DNA from: a virus
Virus record (IMG/VR): IMGVR_UViG_3300031651_000010
Coordinates: 1-34,536 of that record
Reading direction: 5' to 3' (one strand)
Length of the DNA: 34,536 bases
In this document: positions 4,601-33,322 of the stretch, one piece after another
How positions within the stretch are numbered: the stretch's first letter is position 1
How the letters are laid out: each line of letters starts with the position of its first letter
The notes under the pieces: generated by a model
What the model saw: only the letters and a program-made list of their open reading frames with translations
Told to the model about the DNA's origin: nothing
Database searches by the model: none
Made by a program: the position numbers and the translations under genes

Positions 4601-6396
4601 AGGGCAGCCTGTAATTTTACGTTTTCCAGCTCTTTTTTATATTTATTCTTATAATGCTTAAAAATCTCTTTTGGATTATCTGAACCCACTTTTTCTTTAA
4701 CTTTTCGGCCTGTATCACTTATTACTTTTTCAACTCTTTCTTTAGAAACTTTTGCTTTTTCCTCCTTGGTTCCTTTCAATTCTTCATCTAGTTTATATTT
4801 TTTCTTATATTCCTCCTTACCATACTTGGAGGATTCTATTTTTTTCTTTTTTTCCTCCGCTTTTTCCACTATTTTCTTAACTTTTTCCCCAGTTTTCCCG
4901 GTAAGTGGTCCAGTTTCTTTGGTCCGTGCCTTAAGCGTTTTAGCCTCTGCCCTCTGGGCTAACTTACCACCTATACCACCTAAAACGGCACCTCCGGCGC
5001 CTCCAATCGCAGCTTCTAAAACTCCTTTTTTCAGAGCTTCGCCAGGTCCCAATTCCTGGGCGGCTGTTTCATAAGCCGTTACTAAGGGTGCGCCCGCAGC
5101 CCCTTTTAGGGCTTCTCTCCCGGCGCTCTGGGCAATTGGGCTTTCTAGAACTTTATAGGCATTTGGAGATTTAAAATATTTTTGGACCGCACTTCCTAAT
5201 TTCGCCCCAATCTTAGGTCCTGCTTTAACTGTAGCCTTTTCACCTAATGAATAAGCCGCGCTGCCTATTGACTGCGTCCCACCACCTGTTGGCATAGCAA
5301 GCCCTGTACCATAGCCTACCATGTCCGATAGAAAATTCATAACCGGATTTATATCGGGCTGTTCTTCTGGTAGTCCTAAACCAGAGGCTGCCTGGGGTAT
5401 AGCTTCACTGACTCTTTGTGAAAACTTACCTGACATAGGAGAGGTAAGTTCGCTAAGGGTTTCCCCAAAGCCTTCGGCCTCTCCAATTCTTTGAAGCCAG
5501 GGTCTTTCTTTTTCCCTTTCAACATCTGCGGTTTTTCTTATACCTGCCAGGGATAAGCCATCATAATTTATGCCATTCTTTTCAAGGATAGCGATATCTT
5601 CTTCTATATGTCCATTTCCATAAACTTTTAATTCTTCTTCCAAAGCCCTTTCGTCGGCTGCGGTTGTACCCCGTACCGTACCTATGATATCACTTATAGA
5701 CTGTTTCCAAAGGGCCTCTAACTCTTGAGAGTCGGGCTTTTTTTCGCTTACATCTATTTTTCCTAAACTAACTAATACCCCATCTTTCATGTAGTAATAG
5801 TTGTCTTTATTTTCACCTATAATGTTATATTCTCTAGGGGTTGTTATAATGCTATACCCACCGACGTCACCACCAGAACTGCAGCGCTTTTGGCTGTCTG
5901 TGGTTTTGTACTGGTATACTTTCTTTTTAACATCCACTATTCCAAGTTTCAAAAATAACGGATTTAAAGTATCAACCATTTCTTTCCCGTCTGTAGTCTT
6001 GACCTGTACCATTAAGTTTAAAGGCTTGTCCTCGGTATTCATGGGTATGGTCTTTGTGAAATCAGGCATACCATACCGGCTAAGTGCTTCTTTATAAAAA
6101 GGATGTTTTTGATTAGTTAAAAAATCTTCATTTACCTGTTTGTAATATTCTGACATAGTAGGCGGACCTACGACTTGTCCTATGGGTTCACCCGCTGGAT
6201 CGGGTTCGTCTTTTCCTGCTTTAAAATAATCATATTTTTCATTTAACTTAGAAATTCCAGCTTTTAGACTTTCATCCTTACTGTCTCTCATTTTTAGGCC
6301 TTCACTTCTTATATTTTCATCCTGGAATCTTTTTTTTGTTTCATCATCTAGATAATTTTTAAGCCAGGTCTTAGATTTATATTTTGTTTTTGCCAT
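1627..6396 (-). CDS. Large polyvalent virion (internal/ejection) protein, 1589 aa
   Basis: Very large multidomain protein at the end of the virion gene block. Visible regions: a charged N-terminus; a Gly/Ala-rich stretch about residues 350-485 (GGAGGAVLGGIGGKLAQ) that could insert in or cross a membrane; a Lys/Glu-rich helical part about 490-620; RHGIEHVLD near 632, which recalls the HxxxH zinc sites of polyvalent-protein domains but is not canonical; a coiled coil about 878-932; and a C-terminal domain about 1020-1400 with MIRNNVSN, MPFTQTPGNV and GAGIAVMAYALA. The last type of segment is typical of large polyvalent internal or ejected proteins of phages. Start ATG follows GGGGGGTAAGTAATT. 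Role in DNA ejection is inferred from size, position and composition. Confidence 0.7.
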   Translation of the reverse strand: MAKTKYKSKTWLKNYLDDETKKRFQDENIRSEGLKMRDSKDESLKAGISKLNEKYDYFKAGKDEPDPAGEPIGQVVGPPTMSEYYKQVNEDFLTNQKHPFYKEALSRYGMPDFTKTIPMNTEDKPLNLMVQVKTTDGKEMVDTLNPLFLKLGIVDVKKKVYQYKTTDSQKRCSSGGDVGGYSIITTPREYNIIGENKDNYYYMKDGVLVSLGKIDVSEKKPDSQELEALWKQSISDIIGTVRGTTAADERALEEELKVYGNGHIEEDIAILEKNGINYDGLSLAGIRKTADVEREKERPWLQRIGEAEGFGETLSELTSPMSGKFSQRVSEAIPQAASGLGLPEEQPDINPVMNFLSDMVGYGTGLAMPTGGGTQSIGSAAYSLGEKATVKAGPKIGAKLGSAVQKYFKSPNAYKVLESPIAQSAGREALKGAAGAPLVTAYETAAQELGPGEALKKGVLEAAIGGAGGAVLGGIGGKLAQRAEAKTLKARTKETGPLTGKTGEKVKKIVEKAEEKKKKIESSKYGKEEYKKKYKLDEELKGTKEEKAKVSKERVEKVISDTGRKVKEKVGSDNPKEIFKHYKNKYKKELENVKLQAALKAEGVYEKVSRAKNGDIIIKYNPKKSPDIAAGSIRHGIEHVLDVKKGFKGVDRTINKAAKNVYEQYASKTHHKFYEFFEPEYVRRQDVKNALNAGETVPPDIIKELSLENYKPVRAEGVPPGSIPPVGGVSTTGIKGISRFRGTTVPESQATTEAFKKNLKRRPPVEYDIRSNQQDWDNAVDKVFKNPENTWTAIKNRTQKGYNAADSTEMMALIEMHEHNKNYDGANEVLEHLTEKATEAGQFIQALSIWNRRTPEGMLKYAKYKANKGMAKKFPARDQLKGQIKTLKNTIKELEGKKNNASNKEIKGIEDDINLHSRNLAEIEDKLAKLEKKISKLDLSEEDSKYITDRMKNYKSEAFRQKYYDEKLQELTKGSPASEKQQFKASEYATRKQNIELKRALTKISELEPTTNRDRLRALQRINLLTNAKTMIRNNVSNSVFGLVEVTREQTFGAAIDYLAAAARTKSVVKPITRPLASGRTTVFSPIQMPKAYVEGLGKGMKAVYDDVYDSLKVYHEHINTSNTRGPFESVRGKTFKGKNVVSRTLNKMDNIVKTIVTDRPFYEAAKEARISQLKKIGKTSTITPEMEDAAALYAVDKVFQNDSYIARTMTAFRKKAPYLGDIIMPFTQTPGNVLDKLLDYTPVSLGKLLHQFGTKGEKGFDTKLAVDRMSRMLSGAGIAVMAYALAKKGLITGNLYAEPSKKKREFELAKGKKSYALKIGNKYYTYDWLTPVGGVFSAVADWVGTQKSESGSKALEVMIGSPINTVANQSFLSGVFALFSEQTISEGLIKGVGGSLSQAVPLSTLTRQIATFTDPLDRDASGTSQGEKIKKRAVKGIPGLRQKLDPKADIFGEELKTGTENRGLDFFNTFVMPANIGTEKRTRITDELDRLIKANPREKATNILPSSISNTIRYKNEDFELTSVQAAKFKKIYGKEVASGLNQTILSSEYRSLTNANKFKAIKGIYTTALKESKKKALKSFGYGVEEE

Positions 6397-15017: not shown

Positions 15018-15656
15018 TTAATCACCTCTCTTTAAAAGGTCTTTACCTACCCAGCCATTATTTAATCCTGCTGCAAAAGTACTTCTATTAATTTTATATT
15101 TAGAACACCATTCTATAACTGTCATAGTAATAAGACCTATAGTAACTAATCTATTAGTGCTTTTGTTTAACTGCTGGGCTTTATTGCTTATAAATCTACA
15201 ATTTGAAGGCTCATAATTCCCATTATTATCTATTCTATCAATTATTAAATCTTCTGAATATCCGTTTTCCACAGCCCAATTATAAAAATTATTAAAATCA
15301 TCCCATTCTTTACAAACTTTAATTCCCTTAGCGCCATAATTTTCATAACGGCTGCTCTTCGGATTACTACATCTTTGCCTCATGGCTGTCCATCTTTTAT
15401 GTATTTTTGTTTCACACATCCCATGTTTAAAAGCCCTTTTTTTAACAGCCTCTTTTTTATGACATCCACAAGATTTAGATTTTAATGATCTTAATTGGTC
15501 TGCTCTTACACTTCTTACTTCACCGCATTTACATTCACAAAACCAATAGCTGTGCCTATTAATGCTTTTAGAATCATCATAGCCTATTACGCTCCAATAA
15601 TGAAAGCTTTCACCTATCAAATTTTTTAAATCTTTTCTTCGCTTTATATTTTGCAT
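15018..15656 (-). CDS. Free-standing HNH-type homing endonuclease, 212 aa
   Basis: The N-terminal third has a zinc-finger-like pair of cysteine motifs (CECKCG and SCGCH). Residues about 85-165 carry the phage HNH-family pattern: RWTAMRQRCSNP, YENYGAKGIKVCKEW, F-NWA-NGY, then IDRIDNNGNYEPSNCRF. A C-terminal helix-turn-helix-like segment (EWCSKYKINRSTFAAGL) may bind DNA. It cuts DNA to spread its own gene. The start is ATG 15656 behind GGAGGTGTAGCACT; the upstream in-frame codons lack an RBS. Start and RBS lie in a perfect hairpin. It is placed between the major capsid gene and a small structural gene, with no intron core around it. Confidence 0.88.
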   Translation of the reverse strand: MQNIKRRKDLKNLIGESFHYWSVIGYDDSKSINRHSYWFCECKCGEVRSVRADQLRSLKSKSCGCHKKEAVKKRAFKHGMCETKIHKRWTAMRQRCSNPKSSRYENYGAKGIKVCKEWDDFNNFYNWAVENGYSEDLIIDRIDNNGNYEPSNCRFISNKAQQLNKSTNRLVTIGLITMTVIEWCSKYKINRSTFAAGLNNGWVGKDLLKRGD

Positions 15657-15690
15657 AGTGCTACACCTCCATATTAAGTATAGCACTATG
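15654..15690 (-). promoter_or_regulatory. Start-codon-sequestering hairpin of the HNH gene
   Basis: On the transcript CATAGTGCTA (15690-15681) is the exact reverse complement of TAGCACTATG (15663-15654). The second arm contains the ATG of the HNH gene and the 17-nt loop contains its GGAGGTG Shine-Dalgarno. Such a hairpin would block ribosome access. Phage T4 homing endonucleases such as I-TevI are controlled by RBS-masking hairpins of this kind (established knowledge); here the role is inferred. Confidence 0.75.

Positions 15691-18999: not shown

Positions 19000-19000
<1 letters not shown>
18629..19000 (-). CDS. Zinc-ribbon-like hypothetical protein, 123 aa
   Basis: Two cysteine pairs, CSHC (about residues 47-50) and CLAC (about 68-71), separated by about 17 residues, form a likely zinc ribbon. 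The rest is helical and polar with no membrane segment. ATG overlaps the portal stop as TAATG, with GGAGGTG inside the portal's last codons, so the two genes are translationally coupled. Small zinc-ribbon proteins next to portal genes are common in phages but rarely assigned. Confidence 0.6.
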
Positions 19001-21094
<2,094 letters not shown>

Positions 21095-21102
<8 letters not shown>

Positions 21103-21326: not shown

Positions 21327-21989
21327 TTAATTATAACACTTAATCGCCAAGGCTTTCAATATAAGCTCGGCGTGTACGAAATCGGCTTCTGTATCAATAT
21401 CTATCGACTTGTATTTTTCCATTTCAAATATTACAGGTTCTTTTTCAAAAATACTATTAGTATCTAAAAATAGACCTACTTTAAATATATAAATACTAGA
21501 ATTTCTATAAAAATAATAATTATCTTGACTTAGCCCTATATTTATTCCCCCGGCATTATATAACTTAGCTAAAAAATCAAGTTTATAAACAGAAACTAAA
21601 GAGTCCTTTTCGCTCTGCTTAAATTTAGCCAGGGCATTATTTATATCTTTAGTCTCACGCAGCGGGCAAGTGGGCTGCAGCAAACAAATAACATCATCTT
21701 TACCTAAATCTTTTAGGTCAATGATATGTTTTATATATTTATTTGCTGCAGCCTCACTTGTACATAAAGGCAGAGGCCTTTTAATATACTCAACTTTAGA
21801 ATTTAATAAATGTTCCACTTGAACTCTTTTATAATCAGTACTAAGTATTATTTTTTTTAAGTGACTCGCACTTGCCGCATCAATAGTGTATTTTATTAAT
21901 TCCTTACTTGCTATTTCTCGAATATTTTTATTCGGGATTCTTACACTCCCTATTCTTGCAGGTATTAGTCCCACTATCACATTAACCAC
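21327..21989 (-). CDS. neuA: CMP-nonulosonate (sialic-acid-type) cytidylyltransferase, 220 aa
   Basis: Activates a nonulosonic acid with CTP to give the CMP-sugar donor. The N-terminal signature IPARIGSVRIPNKN (residues 9-22) keeps the R-x-x-S-x-R-x-P-x-K pattern of the CMP-sugar synthetase family, although the usual ARGGSK reads ARIGSV. LLQPTCPLR (103-111), the NSSIYI strand (163-168) and DIDTEADF (197-204, with the metal-binding aspartates) are also in place. IPNKN is closer to PseF/LegF/NeuA-type enzymes than to KdsB. Length is normal. The GTG start follows the previous stop by a base. NeuC-like and NeuB-like genes lie in the same cassette. Substrate (Neu, Leg or Pse type) cannot be told. 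Confidence 0.85.
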   Translation of the reverse strand: MVNVIVGLIPARIGSVRIPNKNIREIASKELIKYTIDAASASHLKKIILSTDYKRVQVEHLLNSKVEYIKRPLPLCTSEAAANKYIKHIIDLKDLGKDDVICLLQPTCPLRETKDINNALAKFKQSEKDSLVSVYKLDFLAKLYNAGGINIGLSQDNYYFYRNSSIYIFKVGLFLDTNSIFEKEPVIFEMEKYKSIDIDTEADFVHAELILKALAIKCYN

Positions 21990-22289
21990 CTACTTATATT
22001 TTAAATAAGCCTTATTTATAATTTCACTTATTTCAATATTTCTAATAGTTCCTCTTATCATGTTTTCAGTCATATTAGGCTCAATCACAAACAACTTTTT
22101 GCTATTAAGAATTTTTGTTAAACAAAAAGCGTATGCGTCATCTTGGTCTATTTCATTAAGTTTATCAATCATAGTTATGAATATTCTGTATTCCGCATTA
22201 GTTAGCTGAGGTATATTAGCCGACCCTTCCAATAGATCCTTTTCAGAATCATCAAAGCTTCTTTCAATTTCAGCATAAATGTCTTTCAT
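21990..22289 (-). CDS. Small hypothetical protein, 99 aa
   Basis: Unrecognised. I choose ATG 22289 (MKDIYAEIERSF) behind AGGGGG; the open frame extends upstream over the preceding gene without a better RBS. The sequence is helical and charged (NAEYRIFITMIDKLNEID, EISEIINKAYLKYK), with no Cys pairs or membrane segment. It ends one base before the CMP-sugar synthetase start, so the two are likely co-translated. Function unknown. Confidence 0.55.
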   Translation of the reverse strand: MKDIYAEIERSFDDSEKDLLEGSANIPQLTNAEYRIFITMIDKLNEIDQDDAYAFCLTKILNSKKLFVIEPNMTENMIRGTIRNIEISEIINKAYLKYK

Positions 22290-22308
22290 TATCTTTATTT
22301 CCCCCTTT

Positions 22309-22542
22309 TTATATATCGCCGATATCTCCAAAATCAGACCTTTCATATTGATACTTTAAATCACGTTCCAACACATCTATCCGTGCTTTATTAAGCTGCA
22401 TTTGAGTTTCTAAGGCCTGCAGCCTGTTAGTCAATTTTATTATATGGGCGGTTAGCTTAACCACTAAGTACCCACCACCCACAAAAAATACTGGAGTTCC
22501 GTACTTGCCCGCTAATTGCAATATAGCCGTTAATTCCTCCAT
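22309..22542 (-). CDS. BhlA/holin-like small membrane protein, 77 aa
   Basis: Residues about 12-34 (KYGTPVFFVGGGYLVVKLTAHI) are one probable membrane segment, followed by a coiled coil (LTNRLQALETQMQLNKARIDVLERDL). This one-TM plus coiled-coil layout matches BhlA/UviB-type holin-like proteins and other phage small membrane proteins. Start ATG 22542 follows GAGGTGGTAAGT. It is the second candidate lysis membrane protein, distant from the endolysin at 29-30 kb. Role inferred. Confidence 0.55.
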   Translation of the reverse strand: MEELTAILQLAGKYGTPVFFVGGGYLVVKLTAHIIKLTNRLQALETQMQLNKARIDVLERDLKYQYERSDFGDIGDI

Positions 22543-22553
22543 ACTTACCACCT

Positions 22554-22865
22554 CTATAAAATATTGCTGCCAGGAAACTGCTGTTTGTACTTTTCAGATA
22601 TTGCAGCCATCTGGAGTAATTCACTAAAACATTTTGCTATAAGATTACCTAAGTCTATATTGTAGTTAGCCGCCCCCTCAAAATTATCATTTTTTATATA
22701 ATCCCAGATATCTTCCAGGCAGCTTTCTATATTTTCTAATTCTTCCTGAGCTTCTTCGAACTCTTCTTTGAATACCGCATAAAATTCGTGATTACTTGCA
22801 AAAGCTTTCCCATACTTTTCATTATTTTTCTCTAAGATTTCAAGTACTATCTCTCTAATTTCCAT
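22554..22865 (-). CDS. Small acidic helical protein, possible MazG-like relative, 103 aa
   Basis: All-alpha, strongly acidic protein. The central FYAVFKEEFEEAQEELENIE recalls the ExxE helices of the all-alpha NTP pyrophosphohydrolase (MazG-like) superfamily, and the C-terminal CFSELLQMAAISEKY resembles its last helix. Similar small proteins occur in Gram-positive phages. Key metal residues cannot be confirmed, so the function is tentative. ATG follows AAGGAGAATTACT and overlaps the NeuC-like gene's end by 11 bp. Confidence 0.5.
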   Translation of the reverse strand: MEIREIVLEILEKNNEKYGKAFASNHEFYAVFKEEFEEAQEELENIESCLEDIWDYIKNDNFEGAANYNIDLGNLIAKCFSELLQMAAISEKYKQQFPGSNIL

Positions 22866-23892
22866 AGTAATTCTCCTTTATCTTTTTTAGTATTTTTTCA
22901 CTGGCTAGACCATTTCCAAAAGTCCCATCATAAGTGATTTTTGTCTGCTCAAAACCTATAAACTTTTCGCATTCATCCATTATAGCTTTATAGTCCATAG
23001 GCACTCGATATACATTACTTGCCGCCTCTCGACCTTCTTGCCTATTCCCTACGAGTACATAAGGAATACCTATAGCAGCCCCTTCTTTAATACCCGAACT
23101 GGTATTACCTAATAACAGGTGGGCACCGTCTAGTAATTTAATATATTCATCCGGCTTTACATCCTTTATGAATTTTATCCCATTAGCCTTAAGCTTATAA
23201 ATAAGGTCTTTACTTCCCGGGTCGACATTGGGGTTAACCCATATTATATCTATTCCTGTACTCAAAGTTTTTATTACTCTTATTAAATCCATATAGGCTT
23301 CACCAAGTAAAGGGTTATAAAGCACTACCATATAGGGATTTAGTGTAGGTGGTTTCCTTCTTTCTAAAACTATGTACACGTAATCGACGGTCGGTGAACC
23401 TACCTGATATACATTACTATGTACAAAAGCTAATCTCTCATAAGCCAATCTAGTTGTGGCAAAATGTATACTAGCTATTTCTGATATTATATATCTCACC
23501 TTATTATCAAATCCACCCGACCATTCGCCACCTTCCGTATGCAGTATATGCACACCGTTAAAAAAGCAAGCCTGGGCCATACCCAGGCATTCATACCGGT
23601 CACCGTGAATAAGACAAAAATCGTATTTACTATTGCTTAAATAATTACTAGCATGGTCCATTACTATACTAGTAGTAACCCCCATATTAGCTGGCGTGTC
23701 CTTATACATTAAGCCGTCTACCTTATAGTCAACATAAGTTTCAAAACCACCTAAGTCGATATATGTACCCGAAGAGGCTAGAAATATTTTGAAATCCAGC
23801 CAGTCTTCGTTTTTCTGCATTTCCTTAAGGACCGTTATTAATCTACCAAAATTAGCTCTAGAACCAATAAATACTAATCCTTTTACTCTCAT
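22855..23892 (-). CDS. neuC: Hydrolysing UDP-N-acetylglucosamine 2-epimerase-like protein, 345 aa
   Basis: Enzymes of this family convert UDP-GlcNAc to ManNAc plus UDP, the first step of sialic acid synthesis (bacterial NeuC/SiaA). Seen here: GSRANFGRL (10-18), HGDRYE (96-101), TEGGE (119-123), a conserved aspartate at 129 in GGFDN, GNTSSGIKE (262-270) and GNRQEGRE (282-289), all in family order over the two Rossmann domains. Odd points: the usual HP of the uridine/sugar-binding loop reads YNP (Asn193), and the usual RHAIT segment reads RYIIS. Activity is therefore likely but unproven. RBS AGGAGGTAAGTA just after the split gene's stop codon. Confidence 0.85.
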   Translation of the reverse strand: MRVKGLVFIGSRANFGRLITVLKEMQKNEDWLDFKIFLASSGTYIDLGGFETYVDYKVDGLMYKDTPANMGVTTSIVMDHASNYLSNSKYDFCLIHGDRYECLGMAQACFFNGVHILHTEGGEWSGGFDNKVRYIISEIASIHFATTRLAYERLAFVHSNVYQVGSPTVDYVYIVLERRKPPTLNPYMVVLYNPLLGEAYMDLIRVIKTLSTGIDIIWVNPNVDPGSKDLIYKLKANGIKFIKDVKPDEYIKLLDGAHLLLGNTSSGIKEGAAIGIPYVLVGNRQEGREAASNVYRVPMDYKAIMDECEKFIGFEQTKITYDGTFGNGLASEKILKKIKENYYGN

Positions 23893-23902
23893 TACTTACC
23901 TC

Positions 23903-24892
23903 CTATATAAGGTTATTATTTAAATTATGAGAGCATTCGCCTATAGTTCCTTGTATACTGGCAAAATTCTTATGGATAAAGCTAACTTCATCATTAAGTA
24001 ATTTTATATTCATAAATACTCTTTTTTCTTCCTGCTCTCTTTTAATTATCTGGTTATTTAGCTCTTTGCCTATATTGTCTAGTACTTCCTTATTGCTCAT
24101 TTCCACTTCATTGACTTGTTTAATTATACCTTCTCTGGCTTTTAAATAGTCTTCCAATTTATCAGGGGCTTTTGATAAGAAGGCAAGTAAACCTGTATTA
24201 GCTTCGGCTATAGCCTCTACCTTAGCCCTTTCCTGCTTTAACTCAGTTATTGTATTGTTGATTACGGCAGCCTGGGTTGCTAGTTCTCTAGTTAGCTTAT
24301 CTTTAAAAAATTCAATTTCCGCTAATCTTTTTTCCATATCCTGTTGTCTAGCCTTTAAATCTTTAATACGATCCTTCGCTCTGAATCTTGGCGCATTATC
24401 TGTATCAAAGCCATAATCCTTATAGTGTTTACACAATTCAGAAGAATTAGGAATTAATAATTTTATACCTAATCCGGCAGCCAGACCGATAAAGAATTGA
24501 CAACTCGCCCGCTGAAAGTTATATTCTGTATTGGCCGCCATGTCCACACCGTATATGTGAATTTCCTCATAGCCCATGTATATAGCCAAAGCTATCATCC
24601 AGGAAATTTGATTGGAATAATCAGTATACTTACCACCTATATCATCGATAATGAAGCTTTCATCTATCTTATTCTTTATTTGCGCCCTAGGAAAACCAAG
24701 TGAAGTCGGGTATTCATCCCAATGCTGCTGAGTCACCAGGGGTAACTTCATTGTTTTTAAAAATTCCTGGTGGGTCTTATTCTGCTTCGATGGGGAATCT
24801 TTTATGTTGTGTATTTCAAACCATACATCGTAACGGGGTTTGACTTTATGCTCGGCCGCTTCTTTTCCGCTATATTTGTACAATTCGTTAAT
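23903..24892 (-). CDS. 3' exon of an intron-split Rossmann-type gene (DUF115/GT42-like), residues 87-415
   Basis: Predicted second exon: 990 nt starting at ATT (24892), giving INELYKYS and continuing with RYDVWFEIHN, TQQHWDEYP and SNQISWMIALAIYMGYEEIHIYGVDMA. That last block matches in layout the core of DUF115/Maf flagellin glycosyltransferases and GT42 sialyltransferases (A-x-A-x-x-x-G-Y-K/E-E-I-x-L-x-G-x-D). Phage members without known function also have it. Residues past about 270 are a long coiled coil ending in a polar tail. The ATG at 24895 has no RBS and belongs to the intron end. With a NeuA/B/C set around it, a nonulosonate transferase role is a hypothesis. Confidence 0.75.
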   Translation of the reverse strand: MNELYKYSGKEAAEHKVKPRYDVWFEIHNIKDSPSKQNKTHQEFLKTMKLPLVTQQHWDEYPTSLGFPRAQIKNKIDESFIIDDIGGKYTDYSNQISWMIALAIYMGYEEIHIYGVDMAANTEYNFQRASCQFFIGLAAGLGIKLLIPNSSELCKHYKDYGFDTDNAPRFRAKDRIKDLKARQQDMEKRLAEIEFFKDKLTRELATQAAVINNTITELKQERAKVEAIAEANTGLLAFLSKAPDKLEDYLKAREGIIKQVNEVEMSNKEVLDNIGKELNNQIIKREQEEKRVFMNIKLLNDEVSFIHKNFASIQGTIGECSHNLNNNLI

Positions 24893-24962
24893 CATTTATA
24901 TTCGATACAAAGCGCTAATTTGTATCCGTTCTCTTGTGAACTGCTATATATTACTATATAGA

Positions 24963-25577
24963 TTAGACCATATCTTCATCCTTTCGGATGCTCTCCGTTT
25001 CCATCTGCTTAGATGTACTCCCTTTCGGGATGGTCGTTGAAGTTTCATATTTCCATACAAAGGACCTTAAAGTTTTTCTTTCTTTCCTACAGCAGGAAGC
25101 TATCATACCTTGAGAAAAGCCTGTCTTTCTTGATGCTTCATGTGTAGAAGGGTATATTTTTATTAAATCACCTTTCAAGTCATACTGTCCTACTTTTTTT
25201 GATTTAGCATTATTTCTATTATCACATTTTAAAACTTTAAATTTATGTTTAATATTCTCACTAGCAGTAACCCATTCTAAATTTTTACAGTTATCATTAT
25301 CTTTATCCCCATCTTTATGATTAATTTGTTTTAATTTAGAATGTCCTTTTACAAATGCCAAACCAACTAACCTGCAAACCCTTAAATTCGAATAAATTCC
25401 ATTTTTACTTAATCTTATTAAGTTATACCTATTCTTATCTTTATATATATTCAATAACTTAGGCAGTCTAAATCTATTTAAATGACATTTTTTTTCATAG
25501 CATATCCTTCTAACTTCACCCTCATTTGAAACTTCATAAAGTCCTTCATAATTTTTTATAGATTTCCATATAGTCAT
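24963..25577 (-). CDS. Intron-encoded NUMOD4-HNH homing endonuclease, 204 aa
   Basis: Domain order: NUMOD4 at residues 1-25 (IWKSIKNYEGLYEVSNEGEV), HNH core about 65-115 (RLVGLAFVKG, then NHKDGDKDNDNCKNLEWVT), and a NUMOD1-like DNA-binding tail about 128-178 (KVGQYDLKGDLIKIY, THEASRKTGFSQGMIASCC). It cuts intronless alleles of the host gene so that the intron spreads. It starts at ATG 25577 behind AAAGGAGGAATAGAT, inside a hairpin. The last 24 codons overlap the P7-P8 core of the group I ribozyme, and the stop comes right after the P7 3' strand. One copy only of the intron is visible. Confidence 0.92.
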   Translation of the reverse strand: MTIWKSIKNYEGLYEVSNEGEVRRICYEKKCHLNRFRLPKLLNIYKDKNRYNLIRLSKNGIYSNLRVCRLVGLAFVKGHSKLKQINHKDGDKDNDNCKNLEWVTASENIKHKFKVLKCDNRNNAKSKKVGQYDLKGDLIKIYPSTHEASRKTGFSQGMIASCCRKERKTLRSFVWKYETSTTIPKGSTSKQMETESIRKDEDMV

Positions 25578-25600
25578 ATCTATTCCTCCTTTTAGATATA
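25575..25600 (-). promoter_or_regulatory. Start-codon-sequestering hairpin of the intron HNH gene
   Basis: On the transcript ATATCTA (25599-25593) pairs exactly with TAGATAT (25582-25576), with one further U-G pair; the second arm contains the ATG. The 10-nt loop AAAGGAGGAA exposes the Shine-Dalgarno. Same design as the hairpin of the other HNH gene at 15654-15690. Confidence 0.65.
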
Positions 25601-25728
25601 TGTTATACTAAATGAACTATAAAGTCAATATGCTTACTTGCTGATTGTCCTCAACATTACTTGGTAGGAGTTCCCAGCAGTTAAAAGAGTTTTTAACTCG
25701 CCATTTCTGACAAGTGGAGCATACCTTT

Positions 25729-25986
25729 ACCCCATATATCAAATTCTGTATTCTGCCATGGCGCTTGGTACCAACTAGGTGCAAAGCCCACTATAGCACA
25801 CTTATTCTTTTTTCTAAGCTTCATTATTTCTTTTGGCAAAGGTATCCGGGAAAGCTGTACTGGGCCTTCTTTTACGGTATTTAAATCCACTTTCTTTACC
25901 GGCTGTATAGCAGTTTTAAGCTGCTCTTGTATCGGCTTAGCCTTCTGTTGTTCATTATAAGTATCTGCAATATTTTCTTTATTCAT
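25729..25986 (-). CDS. 5' exon of the intron-split Rossmann-type gene, residues 1-86
   Basis: Predicted first exon: ATG 25986 (MNKENIAD) behind AAGGAG, ten bases upstream; upstream in-frame ATGs overlap the RBS. The exon is 258 nt (86 codons) and ends in GGT at 25729. The first 60 residues are polar and probably unstructured. Then KKNKCAIVGFAPSWYQAPW-FDIWG gives the first Rossmann strand and loop, continued by the 3' exon. Reading on past the splice site gives only eleven codons and a stop, the mark of intron sequence. The start overlaps the upstream 56-aa gene by 8 bp. Confidence 0.75.
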
Positions 25987-26149
25987 TGATATCATTCTCC
26001 TTGTTCTCAAGTTGTTCTATACGTTCTAGCAGCTTATTTATTTCAGTCCTATTATCACCGATATCATTCATAAGGTGACTTAGCATTTGGCTTTGGGTAT
26101 CCAGCCTTTTTCTAATCTCCTCTATATCCACTATTAGTTTATCAATCAT
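25979..26149 (-). CDS. Small coiled-coil protein, 56 aa
   Basis: Short gene starting MIDKLIVDIEEIRKRLDTQS and ending IEQLENKENDINE, strongly heptad-patterned with Leu/Ile/Met repeats, so probably an oligomeric coiled coil. ATG 26149 overlaps the end of the upstream 71-aa gene by 8 bp, and its own stop overlaps the start of the split gene by 8 bp. The chain of overlaps, together with the coding content, supports translation by coupling; the RBS itself is weak. Function unknown. Confidence 0.6.
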   Translation of the reverse strand: MIDKLIVDIEEIRKRLDTQSQMLSHLMNDIGDNRTEINKLLERIEQLENKENDINE

Positions 26150-26357
26150 TTTTATCTTTACCTTCTTTATCTTTTTTCTTTATAATTTCTTGTAATCTTT
26201 CCATTTCCTTTTTATCTGTGTTTGCGTCCTCCTGTTTCTTTCTCCATAAAACATCTTTATCAGCCATAGCTTCAAGCCTCCTTAGCCCTGCGTCTATTTT
26301 CTTGTGCGTTTTTAGCATTGTCTCAAATATCTCGACAGCATGTTCCCAATTATCCAT
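26142..26357 (-). CDS. Small charged helical protein, 71 aa
   Basis: Starts at ATG 26357 (MDNWEHAVEIFETMLKTH), overlapping the NeuB-like stop as TAATG with GAGGTG in front. Lys/Glu/Asp-rich with a predicted coiled coil over most of its length (MERLQEIIKKKDKEG). No cysteines and no membrane segment. It lies between the NeuB-like gene and the 56-aa coiled-coil gene in an overlapping string. Function unknown. Confidence 0.6.
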   Translation of the reverse strand: MDNWEHAVEIFETMLKTHKKIDAGLRRLEAMADKDVLWRKKQEDANTDKKEMERLQEIIKKKDKEGKDKND

Positions 26358-27088
26358 TACTCCACCCACCTCTTTTTATAGATTTCAATAGAGTTTTTGT
26401 ATTTTACCCAAATCATTAGCTTTTCTAATTCATCCGGAGTCATTGACATATGGTGGTCCCTGCCAGGTAAGTATTTAGATAAAGTAAAATGCTTTTCGAC
26501 AAATTGCACCCCTTTGATAAAAGCTTTTTGAGCTGCTATAATGCCTAAAGTATGGTCCGAGAAGCCATCAAAAGTAAGCATTTCGCTATAATTTATATCG
26601 CTCTCTTCTGTAGGGTACCTGGAGATACAATACATAAACTTAGCCTGCTTCTTATACCTATCTATGGTTTTAGTTATTTCAATCTTAGTATGCATTCCGG
26701 TACTTATCCACACTTTACTCTTACTTTTTACAACCGCATCAATAAGTTTATAATTTAGCATGTCTGGAGAAGCGATTTTTAATGAGTACAAGGCATTAAA
26801 ATTTTTAAGGTTAATTAATACATCCGGGGTAAAAATAGTGAAAATAGGGTGTATTGCGTACGTGTTACACTTATCTTCAATAAGCTTTAAGAAGTATTCA
26901 GTAATTTTACATTTTTCCAAATATCTTTTATAATCTTGACAGCCTGGATAATCGGGATTTAGTTTTTCTGGGTTATATAGTTGGAATTTTACAAAGTTAA
27001 CCTGATTATCATAGGCAGTCTTTAGCATTTGTAGTAAAATGTCCTCATTTCCACAATGATTATTGCAAAAATCCAATATTAATTCCAA
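26357..27088 (-). CDS. neuB: N-acetylneuraminate synthase-like protein (NeuB TIM barrel only), 243 aa
   Basis: NeuB-family enzymes condense ManNAc (or a related hexose) with phosphoenolpyruvate to a nonulosonic acid. Seen motifs in order: NNHCGN (9-14), VKFQ (33-36), KIASPD (104-109), STGM (129-132), GFSDHT (175-180), EKHFTL (198-203) and PGRDH (208-212), covering the whole barrel active site. Family members are about 335-350 residues with a C-terminal SAF domain that completes the active site in the dimer; this protein stops right after the barrel. It also lacks the usual short N-terminal extension. TTG start behind GGGGGTAAGTAAA. It could be a minimal enzyme or need a partner. Confidence 0.88.
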   Translation of the reverse strand: MELILDFCNNHCGNEDILLQMLKTAYDNQVNFVKFQLYNPEKLNPDYPGCQDYKRYLEKCKITEYFLKLIEDKCNTYAIHPIFTIFTPDVLINLKNFNALYSLKIASPDMLNYKLIDAVVKSKSKVWISTGMHTKIEITKTIDRYKKQAKFMYCISRYPTEESDINYSEMLTFDGFSDHTLGIIAAQKAFIKGVQFVEKHFTLSKYLPGRDHHMSMTPDELEKLMIWVKYKNSIEIYKKRWVE

Positions 27089-27104
27089 TTTACTTACCCC
27101 CTTC

Positions 27105-27335
27105 TTATTCTTTAAGTTTTTCGTAATAGCCCATCATTGGCTCTAATTGTCTTATAACATCCTCATAGGCATATTGTTCCCCTAAGCCCTCACTAAATTC
27201 TTTAGTATCTAGACAAAAAGAAGTACCCACAATATAATAGCCTGAACATGTAATCGCTATGCATATTGTTACTCTGTTATCTCTATGTATATACTCAGTT
27301 TCTTTAATTTCAGCTCTTATAATTGCATTATCCAA
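27105..27335 (-). CDS. N4 gp49 / Sf6 gp66 family protein, 76 aa
   Basis: The block VTICIAITCSGYYIVGTSFCLD-KEFSEGLGEQYAYEDVIRQLEPMMGYY (residues about 22-71) matches the small phage family typified by N4 gp49/Sf6 gp66 (usual pattern T-C-x-L-x-x-x-x-G-x-x-V-x-G-x-S-A-C, then G-x-x-x-A-x-x-x-A, W-P-L-x-G-Y). The family is widespread in phages and has no known function. TTG start in the context GGAGGTAAGTAAATTGG, shared with two other genes. Confidence 0.75.
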   Translation of the reverse strand: MDNAIIRAEIKETEYIHRDNRVTICIAITCSGYYIVGTSFCLDTKEFSEGLGEQYAYEDVIRQLEPMMGYYEKLKE

Positions 27336-27336
27336 T

Positions 27337-27564
27337 TTACTTACCTCCTTCTTTATCGCCGTACTTTATTTTTTCATATGTTATGCTAAAAGGGCAGCAG
27401 GGGCAAAAATAGGCTTCCATCTGCACATCTTTTAGTAAGTAAGTCCCGCAATCAGGACAGTATTTTACTTTTTTAACTGTCCTGACTGCGCTTTTTATAT
27501 CTAAAATTTCCTCATGTTTGGGCTCTAAATCTACTTTTTTATTCTTTTTAAAAAAATTAAACAC
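27337..27564 (-). CDS. Zinc-ribbon protein, 75 aa
   Basis: A basic start (FNFFKKNKKVDLEPKHEE) is followed by CPDCG and CPCC separated by about 18 residues, a likely zinc ribbon. The chosen start is GTG 27564, which overlaps the dehydrogenase stop as TAGTG and has GGAGGTT eight bases upstream; an earlier in-frame TTG would overlap the RBS. Function unknown; it is one of four small zinc-binding-type proteins in this window. Confidence 0.6.
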   Translation of the reverse strand: MFNFFKKNKKVDLEPKHEEILDIKSAVRTVKKVKYCPDCGTYLLKDVQMEAYFCPCCPFSITYEKIKYGDKEGGK

Positions 27565-28772
27565 TATTTTAACCTCCAATACTTATAATCTAAAGGATAG
27601 TCATTTACTATACCAGGCAAATCAATCAAGACTCTTTTATTGTCTGGTAAGTCTTTTTTGTATAAGTCACATAGCCCTTTATCCTCTATAAATTCTTGAA
27701 CCCATTTACTGGCTGTACCTATAATAACTACATCGCACTTGCCCGACTCCATCTGGCGCCATCTGCCTTTTGGTTCCCAGATATCAACCTTTGTGCCCCA
27801 CTTTATAAGCTCGCTTTGTAAATCGAAAAGTCTTGAACCTTTGCAGGAGTCCGCATTATCTTTATAGGTTACACCCATAATCAATATATCTTTTCCCTTA
27901 AAGGACTCATTCATTAAGCTGTGTATGACCCTAACTATATGATTAGGCATCCACTCATTAACTCTTCTTGCCATTGTTAATATATCAGTGCTGGGCTCTT
28001 CATATTCACTAAAGCCAGAAGCCCACAAATAATAAGGGTTAACCGGTATACACTGACCGCCCACAAGACCTGGCTTAAAATTCAGCCAGTTCCATTTAGT
28101 TCTGCATAATTTGAATACTTTATTGTGGTCGATTCTATCAAGCCCTAAAGTCATTACACACTCATTCATGAAGGCAATGTTAACATCTCTTTGGCAATTT
28201 TCAATAAGCTTTGCTGCTTCGGCCTCCTGGGTAGTATCCGCTTTTACTACCTTATCGCAAAGGAAACAATAAAGATTTGATATCTTCAAGTAAGATACCC
28301 GGCCGCACCCAGCCACGATTTTTGGTGTATTTTGAAAAGTATTCAATTTATCACCCGGGTTTATCCGTTCTGGTGAAAAGCCCATATAAAAATCTTCTCC
28401 ACAGGTAAATCTTGTTTGGTTTTCTAAATAGTCCTTATATTTTTCAGTAGTTCCCGGACCTACCGAAGATTCAATTATTATCGTTTTTCCTGTTAAAATA
28501 GTAGAAATTTCTCTAAAAATATCATCAAAAGCTGAATAATTCGGGGTTTTATCCTCATTTAAGAGGGTAGGTAAGCATATAAATATATACTCACAATCCC
28601 TTAATTCCTGGATACTTTCTCTTCTTATGGCTATAATAGGCAGGGCCCCTATACAAAGCCGGGCATCTATAAAAGGATCATAATATTCTATACTAAAGTG
28701 TAATTCATTATCTTGCATAGCCTTTGCCAGTTCTTGTCCTACATAGCCCATTCCTATAATACCTATTTTCAT
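27564..28772 (-). CDS. UDP-N-acetyl-hexosamine dehydrogenase (UDP-ManNAcA/GalNAcA type), 402 aa
   Basis: UDP-sugar dehydrogenases oxidise the C6 hydroxyl of a nucleotide sugar to a uronic acid with NAD. Seen: Rossmann GMGYVG (7-12), ESSVGPGTTE (101-110), SPERINPGD (133-141, the WecC/TviB/WbpA kind of motif), Lys188 and Asn192 in AAKLIEN, catalytic Cys241 in GGQCIPVNPYYL, and TYKDNADS in the C-terminal domain. The usual GGHC reads GGQC. Length is close to the family's 400-430. SPERINPGD favours a HexNAc substrate over UDP-glucose. ATG overlaps the upstream stop as TAATG behind GGGAGGTAAAC. In this cassette it would make a UDP-HexNAcA. Confidence 0.88.
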   Translation of the reverse strand: MKIGIIGMGYVGQELAKAMQDNELHFSIEYYDPFIDARLCIGALPIIAIRRESIQELRDCEYIFICLPTLLNEDKTPNYSAFDDIFREISTILTGKTIIIESSVGPGTTEKYKDYLENQTRFTCGEDFYMGFSPERINPGDKLNTFQNTPKIVAGCGRVSYLKISNLYCFLCDKVVKADTTQEAEAAKLIENCQRDVNIAFMNECVMTLGLDRIDHNKVFKLCRTKWNWLNFKPGLVGGQCIPVNPYYLWASGFSEYEEPSTDILTMARRVNEWMPNHIVRVIHSLMNESFKGKDILIMGVTYKDNADSCKGSRLFDLQSELIKWGTKVDIWEPKGRWRQMESGKCDVVIIGTASKWVQEFIEDKGLCDLYKKDLPDNKRVLIDLPGIVNDYPLDYKYWRLK

Positions 28773-30102: not shown

Positions 30103-30969
30103 TTACTCTACCTTCAATTTTTTTAATAATCTATTAATTAAATATAAATCCGTTAACTCTCTTGATTCTACACAAGAACCCGCTTTATGTTTTGTTACTA
30201 TGTAATTATCACTTCTAGCTAATGTCAATAACTCATTTTTTGTTTCTACATCGTAAGAGTCCATAACATCAATATAGAAGCCTCTTATTTGGTTAGACCT
30301 GGCTGCCTGGATAAGCGCTTTTCCGTCTACTACTGACCCCCTACTAGTATTTATAAACCAGGGTCTTAAAACCATATTTTTAAATTCTTTATCACCTATA
30401 AGATTTTCTGTCAATTCATTAGCAGCGGCATGTACTGAGATAATATGGGACCTATAAAGAAGTTCGTCCATATCTCTACACCTATTACTTTCAGGCCATA
30501 CATTATCGAATATAGTGTATTGAACATCATAGAGTAATATATTAGCCCCTAAGCCAGATAGCTTTAAGGCTAGTTGCTGACCTACCCGGCCCGCACCAAT
30601 AATCCCAACCGTTTTGCCCCTCACTTCATAACTCTTATGCAAAAGTGATCCTTCAAGACCTATTTTTAATAACTTTAAAATACCCCATAACGAAGTTTCC
30701 GCAGTAGAGTGCACATTATCGTACAGCCACCTTGGGGAATCAAGATATAATATATCAGGTTTATGGAATACACTTTTTTTAAGATGATTTATATTAGTGC
30801 AGGGACACACTATATATTTTAGGCTTGGAAAATTATCAATATTGAAGTGTTCGAAATGGACATATAAAATATCGGTATCTTTTGTACTAGTCGTTGTGCT
30901 TATACCCTTTAAATCCAACAGCGCTTTAGCTTTTACCGATAAACTTTCATTTAATAGATACAATTTCAT
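30103..30969 (-). CDS. D-isomer-specific 2-hydroxyacid dehydrogenase family protein, 288 aa
   Basis: NAD-binding GAGRVG at 125-130 and the INTSRGSVVDGKAL block (206-219, with catalytic-type Arg210) identify the family, which interconverts 2-keto and 2-hydroxy acids. HKAG (His261) takes the position of the usual PHIAG. The expected Glu in the DV-EP segment is not clear (here DVMDSYD), so the catalytic triad may be incomplete. The N-terminal catalytic half is diverged and short. It opens the transcript after two promoters and is followed by the amidase. ATG lies twelve bases after AAAGGAGG. The substrate is unknown. Confidence 0.8.
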   Translation of the reverse strand: MKLYLLNESLSVKAKALLDLKGISTTTSTKDTDILYVHFEHFNIDNFPSLKYIVCPCTNINHLKKSVFHKPDILYLDSPRWLYDNVHSTAETSLWGILKLLKIGLEGSLLHKSYEVRGKTVGIIGAGRVGQQLALKLSGLGANILLYDVQYTIFDNVWPESNRCRDMDELLYRSHIISVHAAANELTENLIGDKEFKNMVLRPWFINTSRGSVVDGKALIQAARSNQIRGFYIDVMDSYDVETKNELLTLARSDNYIVTKHKAGSCVESRELTDLYLINRLLKKLKVE

Positions 30970-31198: not shown

Positions 31199-31228
31199 AG
31201 TATAATATATAATACTATTATTTGTCAA
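31199..31228 (-). promoter_or_regulatory. Promoter P1 (TTGACA, 18 nt, TATACT)
   Basis: On the minus strand TTGACA (31228-31223) lies in the last codons of the terminase gene; TATACT (31204-31199) follows after 18 nt. The spacing is one longer than optimal but the hexamers are good. The expected start is near 31192, and the transcript would run through the 17-bp hairpin. Confidence 0.6.
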
Positions 31229-32744
31229 TTGATATTTCTGGAGGCCCAAAAAAACTACCCACCTTGACAAGTCCCTCCTCAATCATTCTGTTAATCTGTG
31301 CTGGATTATAGCCCATCATAATAAGCTCTTTCTCATGATACATAGTTCCTTTTTTAAGACTTTTAGCTTTTCGAGATGGACCCTTATACCATCTAACGCT
31401 AAAATACCTAAAGGCGTCTAATATATGAGTTATCTCGTGGGGTTCCGCTGCTATGTCTTCTGGCTTTTTATCGTCTCTCTGCGCCAATGGCAAGTGCTTA
31501 ATAAGGAATTTACAGGTATTGAATATCTGGACTATAGGCCTCATTTTAAGACCTTTATCTATATCCTTTCTATCTTCATATTCAAAATACAATAACTCTT
31601 TACATGCATACCAACCATTGACCCGGTGGTTAGCTGATACATCAAAAGTCAAGCCGCTTTCGTGAAATAACTGTAAAGCCGTTTTTCCTGTATCATATTT
31701 CCTAGACCCTAAGTCTGGCGGCGCATACATACCACGTATGTTTTGCCTAAAGCCCGGTATACTAGCTATCAATGTATTTAGCAATTTTGCAGCTTGAGAG
31801 ACTATAAGGTCTGATACATGTATCTCATGAGTAACATAGACATTCTTTTCAAAATCAACGGCATAGAACAATACAGCAAACTTATCCAGTCCATAATCGA
31901 TAGAAATATACCTAAACCAATGATTAGGAATTTTAAAGGGTTCTATCACATGGACAGACCGCCTAAACTCACTGAAATACTGGCCTGCTAATGCATCCCA
32001 ATCCCCGTCCCTGTGCGCTCTGCGTAAATCTTCGGGTAAGTTATTCAATATCTGCACATAGTTTTTATCGTTTTTCATTATTATTTCATTATCATATACC
32101 AAAGATTTTACAAAAGAATATTCGGAAAGGTTTTCTAAATCTTCATACTCGCAATCTATGAAGAGCCTTTTTATATACGCGTGCCCGGGACCTCCGGGAT
32201 TACATGTATAATATATTCTTGACTCAAAGTCCGGTCTTGGTGACCTTAAGCATGTACTGATAAAGGTCAATTGTGACTCGGTAAAGCGCGTAGCTTCTTC
32301 AAAGCATATAACATCATACTCGTGGCCTTGGTACTGGTCGGCGTCGGCCTCATACTGGCAATACCCGAGCTTAAGTATTGAGCCATTAGCAAACTCAAAG
32401 GCCTTTTCGGCTGCTTTGTAGTTAGCCACCTTTACAAGAACCTTTTGTCCATTCTTCAAAGTATGAGCTTTAGCCTTTAAAGCTTTTTTTAAGGGCATAA
32501 GGTGATTTGCTTCGAGCTCTGGAAAGGTCCTTCTAAGTAATAAGGTTTTAAGCCCTGAATACTTCATGCATAAGTATACAGCTTTCCACCTCATAGCCCA
32601 TGACTTACCGCCACCGCGAGCGCCGCCGTAAGCAATATGTTTATTTTTCACATTAAAAAAATCGACCTGTTTTTCTTGAGGTTTCGGAAATTCAAAGGCC
32701 GCTTGACTTAAATCCGGTTCTTTATATAGCGCTGATGTTTTCAA
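31218..32744 (-). CDS. terL: Terminase large subunit, 508 aa
   Basis: ATP-driven DNA packaging motor and nuclease. The ATPase half has Walker A GGARGGGKS (40-48), Walker B YDVICFEEA (143-151) and coupling motif YYTCNPGGPGH (178-188). The RNase H-like nuclease half shows acidic residues Asp283 (SIDYG), Asp344 (PPDLGS) and Asp443 (HILDAFRYF). Length is normal. Start TTG lies behind AAGGATTGATATAA and overlaps closely with the end of the 54-aa gene. No small terminase subunit is recognisable upstream in the window; it may be diverged or outside. Confidence 0.96.
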   Translation of the reverse strand: MKTSALYKEPDLSQAAFEFPKPQEKQVDFFNVKNKHIAYGGARGGGKSWAMRWKAVYLCMKYSGLKTLLLRRTFPELEANHLMPLKKALKAKAHTLKNGQKVLVKVANYKAAEKAFEFANGSILKLGYCQYEADADQYQGHEYDVICFEEATRFTESQLTFISTCLRSPRPDFESRIYYTCNPGGPGHAYIKRLFIDCEYEDLENLSEYSFVKSLVYDNEIIMKNDKNYVQILNNLPEDLRRAHRDGDWDALAGQYFSEFRRSVHVIEPFKIPNHWFRYISIDYGLDKFAVLFYAVDFEKNVYVTHEIHVSDLIVSQAAKLLNTLIASIPGFRQNIRGMYAPPDLGSRKYDTGKTALQLFHESGLTFDVSANHRVNGWYACKELLYFEYEDRKDIDKGLKMRPIVQIFNTCKFLIKHLPLAQRDDKKPEDIAAEPHEITHILDAFRYFSVRWYKGPSRKAKSLKKGTMYHEKELIMMGYNPAQINRMIEEGLVKVGSFFGPPEISIDK

Positions 32745-32926: not shown

Positions 32927-33322
32927 CTATTTAGTCGCGCGTTTCTTTCTCCTTGCTGCCCAATCTGCTTTGGCTGTGTAAGCCCCTAGCTTACCTGCTT
33001 TAGACTTAACGCCTGCTTTCTTAAGTGCGCTCATGGCGGTACTCATACCCTTATTGTCCGCGTTCCATGTCTTTACAGCCTTTGCCGCTGCTGTTTTAAC
33101 TTTAGGACTTGCAGCTCTAGACTTTAAGGCTTTTCTTGATGTTGGCATCTTCACGCCTGTTAGCCCTGAAACCCTGTCCATTGCTGACTTCATGCCTTTA
33201 GACGTTGATGTTTTCATCTTAGAATTAATCTTAGACTTTATATCTGCTATTCCCTTAGCTGCTGCCGCTGCTGCTTTAGTTCTTACAGCCTTTGATGTAG
33301 GAGTTTTCATTTTATAAGCCAA
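32927..33322 (-). CDS. Lys/Ala-rich histone-H1-like basic protein, 131 aa
   Basis: Almost wholly Lys, Ala, Ser, Thr, Gly and Met, with repeating short motifs such as KTPTSKA, KTSTSKGM and VKMPTSRKAL, ending in WAARRKKRATK. Very basic and low in hydrophobic residues, similar in style to histone-H1-like and other nucleic-acid-binding tails. It may bind packaged DNA or the packaging machinery; its place right before terminase is suggestive. TTG start behind GGAGGTAAGTAAA. An ATG at 33310 is the alternative. Confidence 0.7.
   Translation of the reverse strand: MAYKMKTPTSKAVRTKAAAAAAKGIADIKSKINSKMKTSTSKGMKSAMDRVSGLTGVKMPTSRKALKSRAASPKVKTAAAKAVKTWNADNKGMSTAMSALKKAGVKSKAGKLGAYTAKADWAARRKKRATK

Follow-up and report, generated by a model that had tools for sequence, protein, structure and literature searches.

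A candidate module for CMP-nonulosonate synthesis and transfer among the head genes of uncultured phages

The window analysed here is the whole of the IMG/VR virus record IMGVR_UViG_3300031651_000010 (linear, 34,536 nt), which is probably a fragment of a larger genome. Between its genes for the terminase large subunit (TerL) and the portal protein lie genes for homologues of NeuC, NeuB and NeuA, the enzymes of nonulosonate synthesis and activation, and a gene named IWG after its motif. An earlier note on this DNA had described the NeuC-, NeuB- and NeuA-like genes and a sugar dehydrogenase gene between terminase and portal; all four were found where it had placed them, on the minus strand, whereas the intron-split IWG gene between NeuB and NeuC had been missed. 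On the minus strand, the order is TerL, a 2-hydroxyacid dehydrogenase (HacidDH), an amidase endolysin, a 120-amino-acid (aa) protein, a nucleoside diphosphate (NDP)-sugar dehydrogenase, two small proteins (one of them Phage_gp49_66), NeuB, a 75-aa protein, IWG exon 1, an intron with an HNH gene, IWG exon 2, NeuC, three small proteins, NeuA, a 74-aa protein and the portal. The principal features are as follows.

31218-32744, minus strand: TerL, one boundary of the block (PF04466; PHROG terminase, 2.5e-42)
30103-30969, minus strand: D-2-hydroxyacid dehydrogenase, outside the span originally noted, part of the conserved block (PF02826, 1.7e-35)
27564-28772, minus strand: NDP-sugar dehydrogenase, specific to the window (TIGR03026, 236.5 bits, over the cut-off of 190)
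26357-27088, minus strand: NeuB-like nonulosonate synthase, 243 aa, catalytic barrel only (PF03102, 9.4e-38; TIGR03569, 5.3e-35)
25729-25986, minus strand: IWG exon 1 (MNKEN...FDIWG, 86 aa; spliced frame)
24893-25728, minus strand: predicted group I intron in the IWG gene, 836 nt (Rfam RF00028; splice junction set by intact relatives)
24963-25577, minus strand: HNH/NUMOD homing endonuclease open reading frame (ORF) inside the intron (PF07463, PF13392 and PF07453 over cut-offs; PHROG HNH, 2.3e-34)
23903-24892, minus strand: IWG exon 2, GT42-sialyltransferase-like by the fold match of a relative, with a C-terminal coiled coil (spliced frame)
22855-23892, minus strand: NeuC-like hydrolysing UDP-N-acetylhexosamine (UDP-HexNAc) 2-epimerase, 345 aa (PF02350, 2.3e-44; TIGR03568 NeuC_NnaA, 2.3e-56)
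21327-21989, minus strand: NeuA-like CMP-nonulosonate cytidylyltransferase, 220 aa (PF02348, 8.6e-18)
19000-21102, minus strand: portal protein, the other boundary (PHROG portal, 4.4e-15)

Profile searches placed the previously noted genes in the families named for them. The scores of NeuA, NeuB and NeuC were over the Pfam cut-offs and under the NCBIfam equivalog cut-offs; thus, the family of each is established, whereas the exact substrate and sugar are not. The NeuA-like protein combines PF02348 with the R/S/K, Q.T.P.R and D.D motifs, keeps KN..R, LLQPT.PLR and SIDIDTE, and matches the N. meningitidis CMP-N-acetylneuraminic acid (Neu5Ac) synthetase 1eyr (2e-16); it scored 98.8 bits against the PseF model, under the cut-off of 205.7. 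The NeuC-like protein is nearer to TIGR03568 (191 bits, with the equivalog cut-off of 235.9 not reached) than to WecB (42 bits), retains the HGDR, EGGE and GN.SSG/RQ..R motifs, and matches the PDB entries 5xvs (8e-28) and human GNE, 4zht (1e-26). For the NeuB-like protein, K34, K104, H179, H200 and D211 are aligned and conserved with cellular NeuB, and the best solved match is PDB 6ncs (2.3e-21), which is also a short chain (290 aa). Its 121 bits against TIGR03569, the N-acetylneuraminate synthase equivalog, are under the curated cut-off of 399.65, and Neu5Ac specificity is therefore not established.

The IWG gene is divided between the ORFs at 25693-26010 and 23903-24895. Removal of 25728-24893 restores a single open frame in which DIWG is joined directly to INELY, and intact IWG homologues in relatives, 41-43% identical to the spliced window product, run through this junction uninterrupted. 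RF00028 matched at 24944-25114 (E=2.3e-8; 39.2 bits, under the gathering score of 50). The catalytic core and the restored exon frame together indicate that the element at 24893-25728 is a group I intron. In this sample of relatives, the intron, as well as an endolysin at its position, is specific to the window.

The gene set was also found in the loci L106/L248/L249 (one phage type), L056/L247, L034 and L122, all from uncultured phages, so that the related phages have kept it at the same place, as the earlier note had asked to be checked. The order is TerL-HacidDH-HacidDH-IWG'-NeuB-IWG-NeuC-NeuA-portal in L247 and L248, and NeuB-IWG-NeuC-NeuA in L034. In L122, NeuB-NeuC-NeuA adjoin the portal and IWG follows the capsid gene, and in L026 and L054 NeuB-NeuC-NeuA stand between the prohead protease and capsid genes, with IWG behind. 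Compared with L247/L248, the window proteins are 44-46% (NeuB), 40-44% (NeuC), 37-39% (NeuA) and 41-43% (IWG) identical, with 55-57% for TerL, 42% for the portal and 32-35% for HacidDH; the module has diverged about as far as the portal. Between L247 and L248, the dN/dS ratios were 0.15-0.29 for the module and 0.07 for the portal and TerL, rough values because dS is near saturation, and they point to purifying selection on the module.

The recurring order, the portal-like divergence and the purifying selection indicate that the block is not a recent insertion, in agreement with the note; recent bacterial insertion was thus ruled out. A broader version of this explanation, in which the genes are recent cellular cargo or an assembly chimera with no phage function, can draw on the 126 NeuB and 11 NeuA hits already counted in viromes in a study of cellular contamination (PMC3877843). 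It is nevertheless highly improbable: several distinct phages share the gene order and its position, and in the window the module is interspersed with phage genes and split by a phage-type intron. One sequence labelled 'phage', FPLJ01000048, proved to be a Moritella polysaccharide locus and was kept only as a cellular reference.

Scans of viral contigs with single NeuB or NeuC sequences found no relatives, and a divergent NeuB alignment gave no usable search pattern. The family search used a DNA pattern for the IWG motif GVDMA....EY..QR, which matched at least 120 IMG/VR stretches. In 84,980 GTDB genomes, it matched only two contigs, of which one, with structural genes on either side of the match, is clearly phage. 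A set of 50,697 phage records yielded one distant relative, directly upstream of the terminase genes in the cultured Microcystis phage Mvi-Yong1342-1. This homologue (protein XAN61349.1; PP496355.1, 34781-35584; L387 5914-6717) is annotated 'type 11 methyltransferase', which is probably a misannotation. No PHROG was found for the two IWG members tested. The KxxIVGxA and EIWG motifs are conserved across 70-84 family members.

The linkage of IWG with NeuA/B/C was examined in 120 IWG loci (1.09 Mb) among the matches listed, with 120 control loci selected through a TerL motif (1.06 Mb) and, as a second control, 115 IWG-free loci selected through another TerL motif, one taken from IWG phages. NeuB was found in 23/120 IWG loci, NeuA in 21/120 (three weak and SpsF-like), NeuC in 6/120 and any of them in 29/120, compared with 0/120 TerL loci and 0/115 IWG-free loci (Fisher 7e-8 for NeuB versus the 120 TerL loci). 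The hidden Markov models were built from the IWG-locus hits, which could lower their sensitivity in the controls; the same models do detect the unrelated NeuB of LR756508. The 23 NeuBs are diverse, with no pair more than 70% identical, and two exceeded the pseudaminic acid synthase cut-off of 340 (L012, 425 bits; L087, 370). NeuA/B/C genes stand on the same strand as IWG in 20/21, 19/19 and 6/6 cases. For 73/114 IWG genes, a head, connector or packaging function is encoded no more than three genes away, and the phages concerned differ in their types of capsid and portal.

The fold of IWG was predicted with AlphaFold2 from alignments of 70-84 relatives, for the L122 and L106 members rather than for the spliced window protein. 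The search with the L106 model (core pLDDT ~95) returned mostly coiled-coil matches, the best globular match being CstII; because the coiled coils swamped the search, the shorter L122 member was modelled (pLDDT 92). Against 350,542 PDB chains, 15/15 matches at E<=1e-3 were GT42 sialyltransferases (CstI, CstII or the P. multocida enzyme; 1.8e-5 to 6e-4, probability 1.00). Similar to C. jejuni CstI/CstII and P. multocida 9c08, IWG is collinear over the N-terminal 120-160 residues, the Asn of RCNQFYF in CstII aligns with that of the IWG WGxN motif, and the G(I/V)D motif is aligned. Among PDB sequences, CstI/CstII chains ranked highest with the IWG profile (E 0.08-0.9), and hhalign of this profile with a CstII fragment scored 36.0, whereas 60 shuffles reached at most 22.1 and eight unrelated window proteins at most 23.7.

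NeuC, NeuB and NeuA together form an established pathway to CMP-nonulosonate from UDP-N-acetylglucosamine (UDP-GlcNAc), phosphoenolpyruvate (PEP) and CTP. In the phage, NeuC would hydrolyse and epimerise UDP-GlcNAc to N-acetylmannosamine (ManNAc), NeuB would condense ManNAc with PEP to a nonulosonate, and NeuA would activate it with CTP. IWG, its gene restored by self-splicing of the group I intron, would then pass the nonulosonate to an acceptor, most likely a phage structural protein modified in the cytosol. The enzymes of the block are likely to make a CMP-nonulosonate, and IWG probably transfers it; the block as a whole is, on balance, best read as a phage module for CMP-nonulosonate synthesis and transfer, with the acceptor left open. 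A virion protein is favoured as the acceptor because the genes lie among packaging and head genes in this and in unrelated phages and all steps would be cytosolic, although this assignment falls slightly short of an even chance. As an economical guess, the sugar is Neu5Ac or a close relative, since no dehydratase, aminotransferase or acetyltransferase genes for the steps preceding legionaminic or pseudaminic acid were recognised in the partial record; host enzymes could supply other precursors. We infer the enzymatic activities, the identity of the sugar, the transferase activity and the virion acceptor, and the late expression supposed in the note follows from gene position only.

Alternatively, the same enzymes might add the sugar to glycans of the host surface and, in the manner of Gtr-type seroconversion genes, block superinfection or change the receptors that phages use. 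Lipooligosaccharide is the substrate of the GT42 enzymes whose function is known, to judge by PDB molecule names, and prophage enzymes altering host nonulosonates exist (PMC12053666). However, neither a flippase nor a transferase of the membrane-anchored or polyprenyl-linked kind was recognised. IWG is a predicted soluble protein with a coiled coil, the genes belong to the head block, and the window showed no integrase. The near absence of IWG from bacterial genomes, where at least one of its two contigs is phage, gives little sign of lysogenic conversion, and host-surface modification is therefore rather unlikely.

Several observations weigh against a synthesis and transfer module. The window NeuB ends at 243 aa and has no C-terminal SAF/antifreeze-like domain; the gene thus belongs to the NeuB barrel family, as first noted, but is truncated to the barrel, and we named its product a NeuB catalytic-domain homologue. 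In N. meningitidis NeuB, the SAF domain provides a substrate-binding Arg. In addition, the His of the YHP motif of other NeuCs, which the L122 NeuC retains, is an Asn in the NeuC of the window clade. These two changes could mean an altered substrate or lost activity. The SAF domain is also missing from the NeuBs of L034, L247, L248, L122, L026, L054 and LR756508 and present in others, such as L086, and the clade-wide conservation together with purifying selection argues for changed rather than dead enzymes. For IWG, the TM-scores of the GT42 matches are only 0.42-0.47, which is moderate, and the sequence-profile match to CstII (E 0.08) is not significant alone. The GT42 general base and one Tyr, H188 and Y156 in CstII, are not evidently kept: no conserved His was found in IWG at the region expected from the GT42 alignment, and H54 and EY..QR (E143/Y144 and Q147/R148; L122 numbering throughout) are conserved instead. 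PF06002 (CST-I) matched weakly in 3/84 members (best 0.00049), below its cut-off. Given these TM-scores, the unrecognised catalytic His and the missed PF06002 cut-off, IWG is described as GT42-like by its predicted fold, not as GT42. Furthermore, NeuA/B/C were not seen on the stretches retrieved for 91/120 IWG loci, and the control sets were drawn from partly different metagenomes.

Some of the same evidence fits a diversion of host metabolism, through the use of UDP-GlcNAc or PEP or the supply of a CMP-sugar to an existing host pathway, with IWG as a fold relative in another role, for example nucleotide-binding or MptE-like. Weak MptE-like (DUF115) matches were seen in 6/84 IWG members (best 0.0024; for PF01973, the L106 member reached 18.1 bits against a cut-off of 34.6), and, as noted above, IWG does not clearly preserve the catalytic residues of GT42 and most IWG loci show no Neu genes. 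The strong genomic linkage of IWG with NeuA/B/C and the best fold matches, which are all CMP-sialic-acid enzymes, make this diversion improbable.

Compared with bacterial NeuC-NeuB-NeuA (CMP-Neu5Ac) clusters and other nonulosonate clusters related to them, the phage set has the same three enzyme families and keeps most motifs, whereas it lies in a head block, is ~23-31% identical to the cellular sequences compared, and differs in the SAF-less NeuB, the His-to-Asn change in NeuC and a putative transferase of a new family. IWG differs from GT42 by its C-terminal coiled coil as well. The Maf flagellin transferases (DUF115/MptE-like), which glycosylate flagellin in the cytosol before export (PMC4065374), resemble the proposed system in a predicted cytosolic transfer of nonulosonate to a self-assembling protein, but IWG has no significant sequence match to them and belongs to phages, not to flagella. 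Nonulosonates are also the target of known prophage genes (A. baumannii epaA/epaB, O-acetyltransferases; PMC12053666, PMC6586298); however, these change a host-made capsule sugar and neither make nor activate one. The huge phage LR756508 likewise has a SAF-less NeuB next to sialyltransferase genes, but these are of the GT29 family and in another context, and no NeuC or NeuA was recognised among the ORFs read nearby. In that 484 kb phage (L004; LR756508.1, 11226-16047), four PF00777 GT29 genes (1e-26 to 1e-32) flank NeuB, behind genes resembling GDP-mannose dehydratase and GDP-fucose synthase.

Searches of the open-access part of PubMed Central turned up no account of nonulosonate synthesis encoded by phages or of a module like this one. 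Bacterial nonulosonate synthesis and phage-encoded glycosylation are already known; their combination among phage head genes appears to be new, and IWG appears to be a transferase-like family so far undescribed. In a tentative extension, IWG would be a large sialyltransferase family, nearly confined to uncultured phages, that covers their own head proteins with nonulosonates; about a quarter would make their own donor, which would be Neu5Ac-like in the window and pseudaminic acid in, for example, L012 and L087, and the rest would use the host's. If several unrelated uncultured phages do keep a complete module for synthesis and transfer among their head genes, sialylation of virions, or of the infected host surface, would be a recurrent phage trait, and a function would be suggested for a widespread protein family with no PHROG or Pfam assignment. 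Such a trait bears on phage receptor binding or avoidance and on interaction with the surroundings.

The two dehydrogenases of the block differ in their conservation. The NDP-sugar dehydrogenase had been noted as a UDP-HexNAc dehydrogenase; a sugar dehydrogenase is indeed present, but it lies outside NeuA/B/C chemistry and has no homologue in the 120 related loci or in L247-L249, and it was ruled out as a module member because it is not conserved in relatives. The position of the 2-hydroxyacid dehydrogenase after TerL is common to L247 and L248, which have two copies each; this position is conserved.

Other genes were seen in IWG phages. A second IWG-like paralogue with a different N-terminal motif and no Pfam match lies upstream of NeuB in L106 (132-986) and L056 (1505-2356). 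In L123 (1330-4234), a NeuA apparently fused, by eye, to an SpsG/PseG-like domain precedes a full-length NeuB, a different nonulosonate route. A HisF-like gene (PF00977, 2.9e-54; L072 4982-5743, and also L046), perhaps for an acetamidino-modified sugar, occurs in phages that also carry NeuB. A transketolase-like gene stands behind NeuA in L086 (2489-3751), and a short-chain dehydrogenase lies between NeuB and NeuA in L078 (7910-8641) and also occurs in L081, L086 and L092. An attempt to gather GT42 sequences in Bacteroidota gave one match, under the cut-off.

Elsewhere in the window, an Rfam match to MIR6450 at 5044-5144 was rejected as a chance match. The portal C-terminus contains a run of ~18 glutamines, a free-standing HNH endonuclease gene (15018-15686; PHROG 2.1e-64) directly adjoins the major capsid gene, and a 131-aa ORF just upstream of the terminase (32927-33322) is histone-like and rich in Lys, Ala and Ser.

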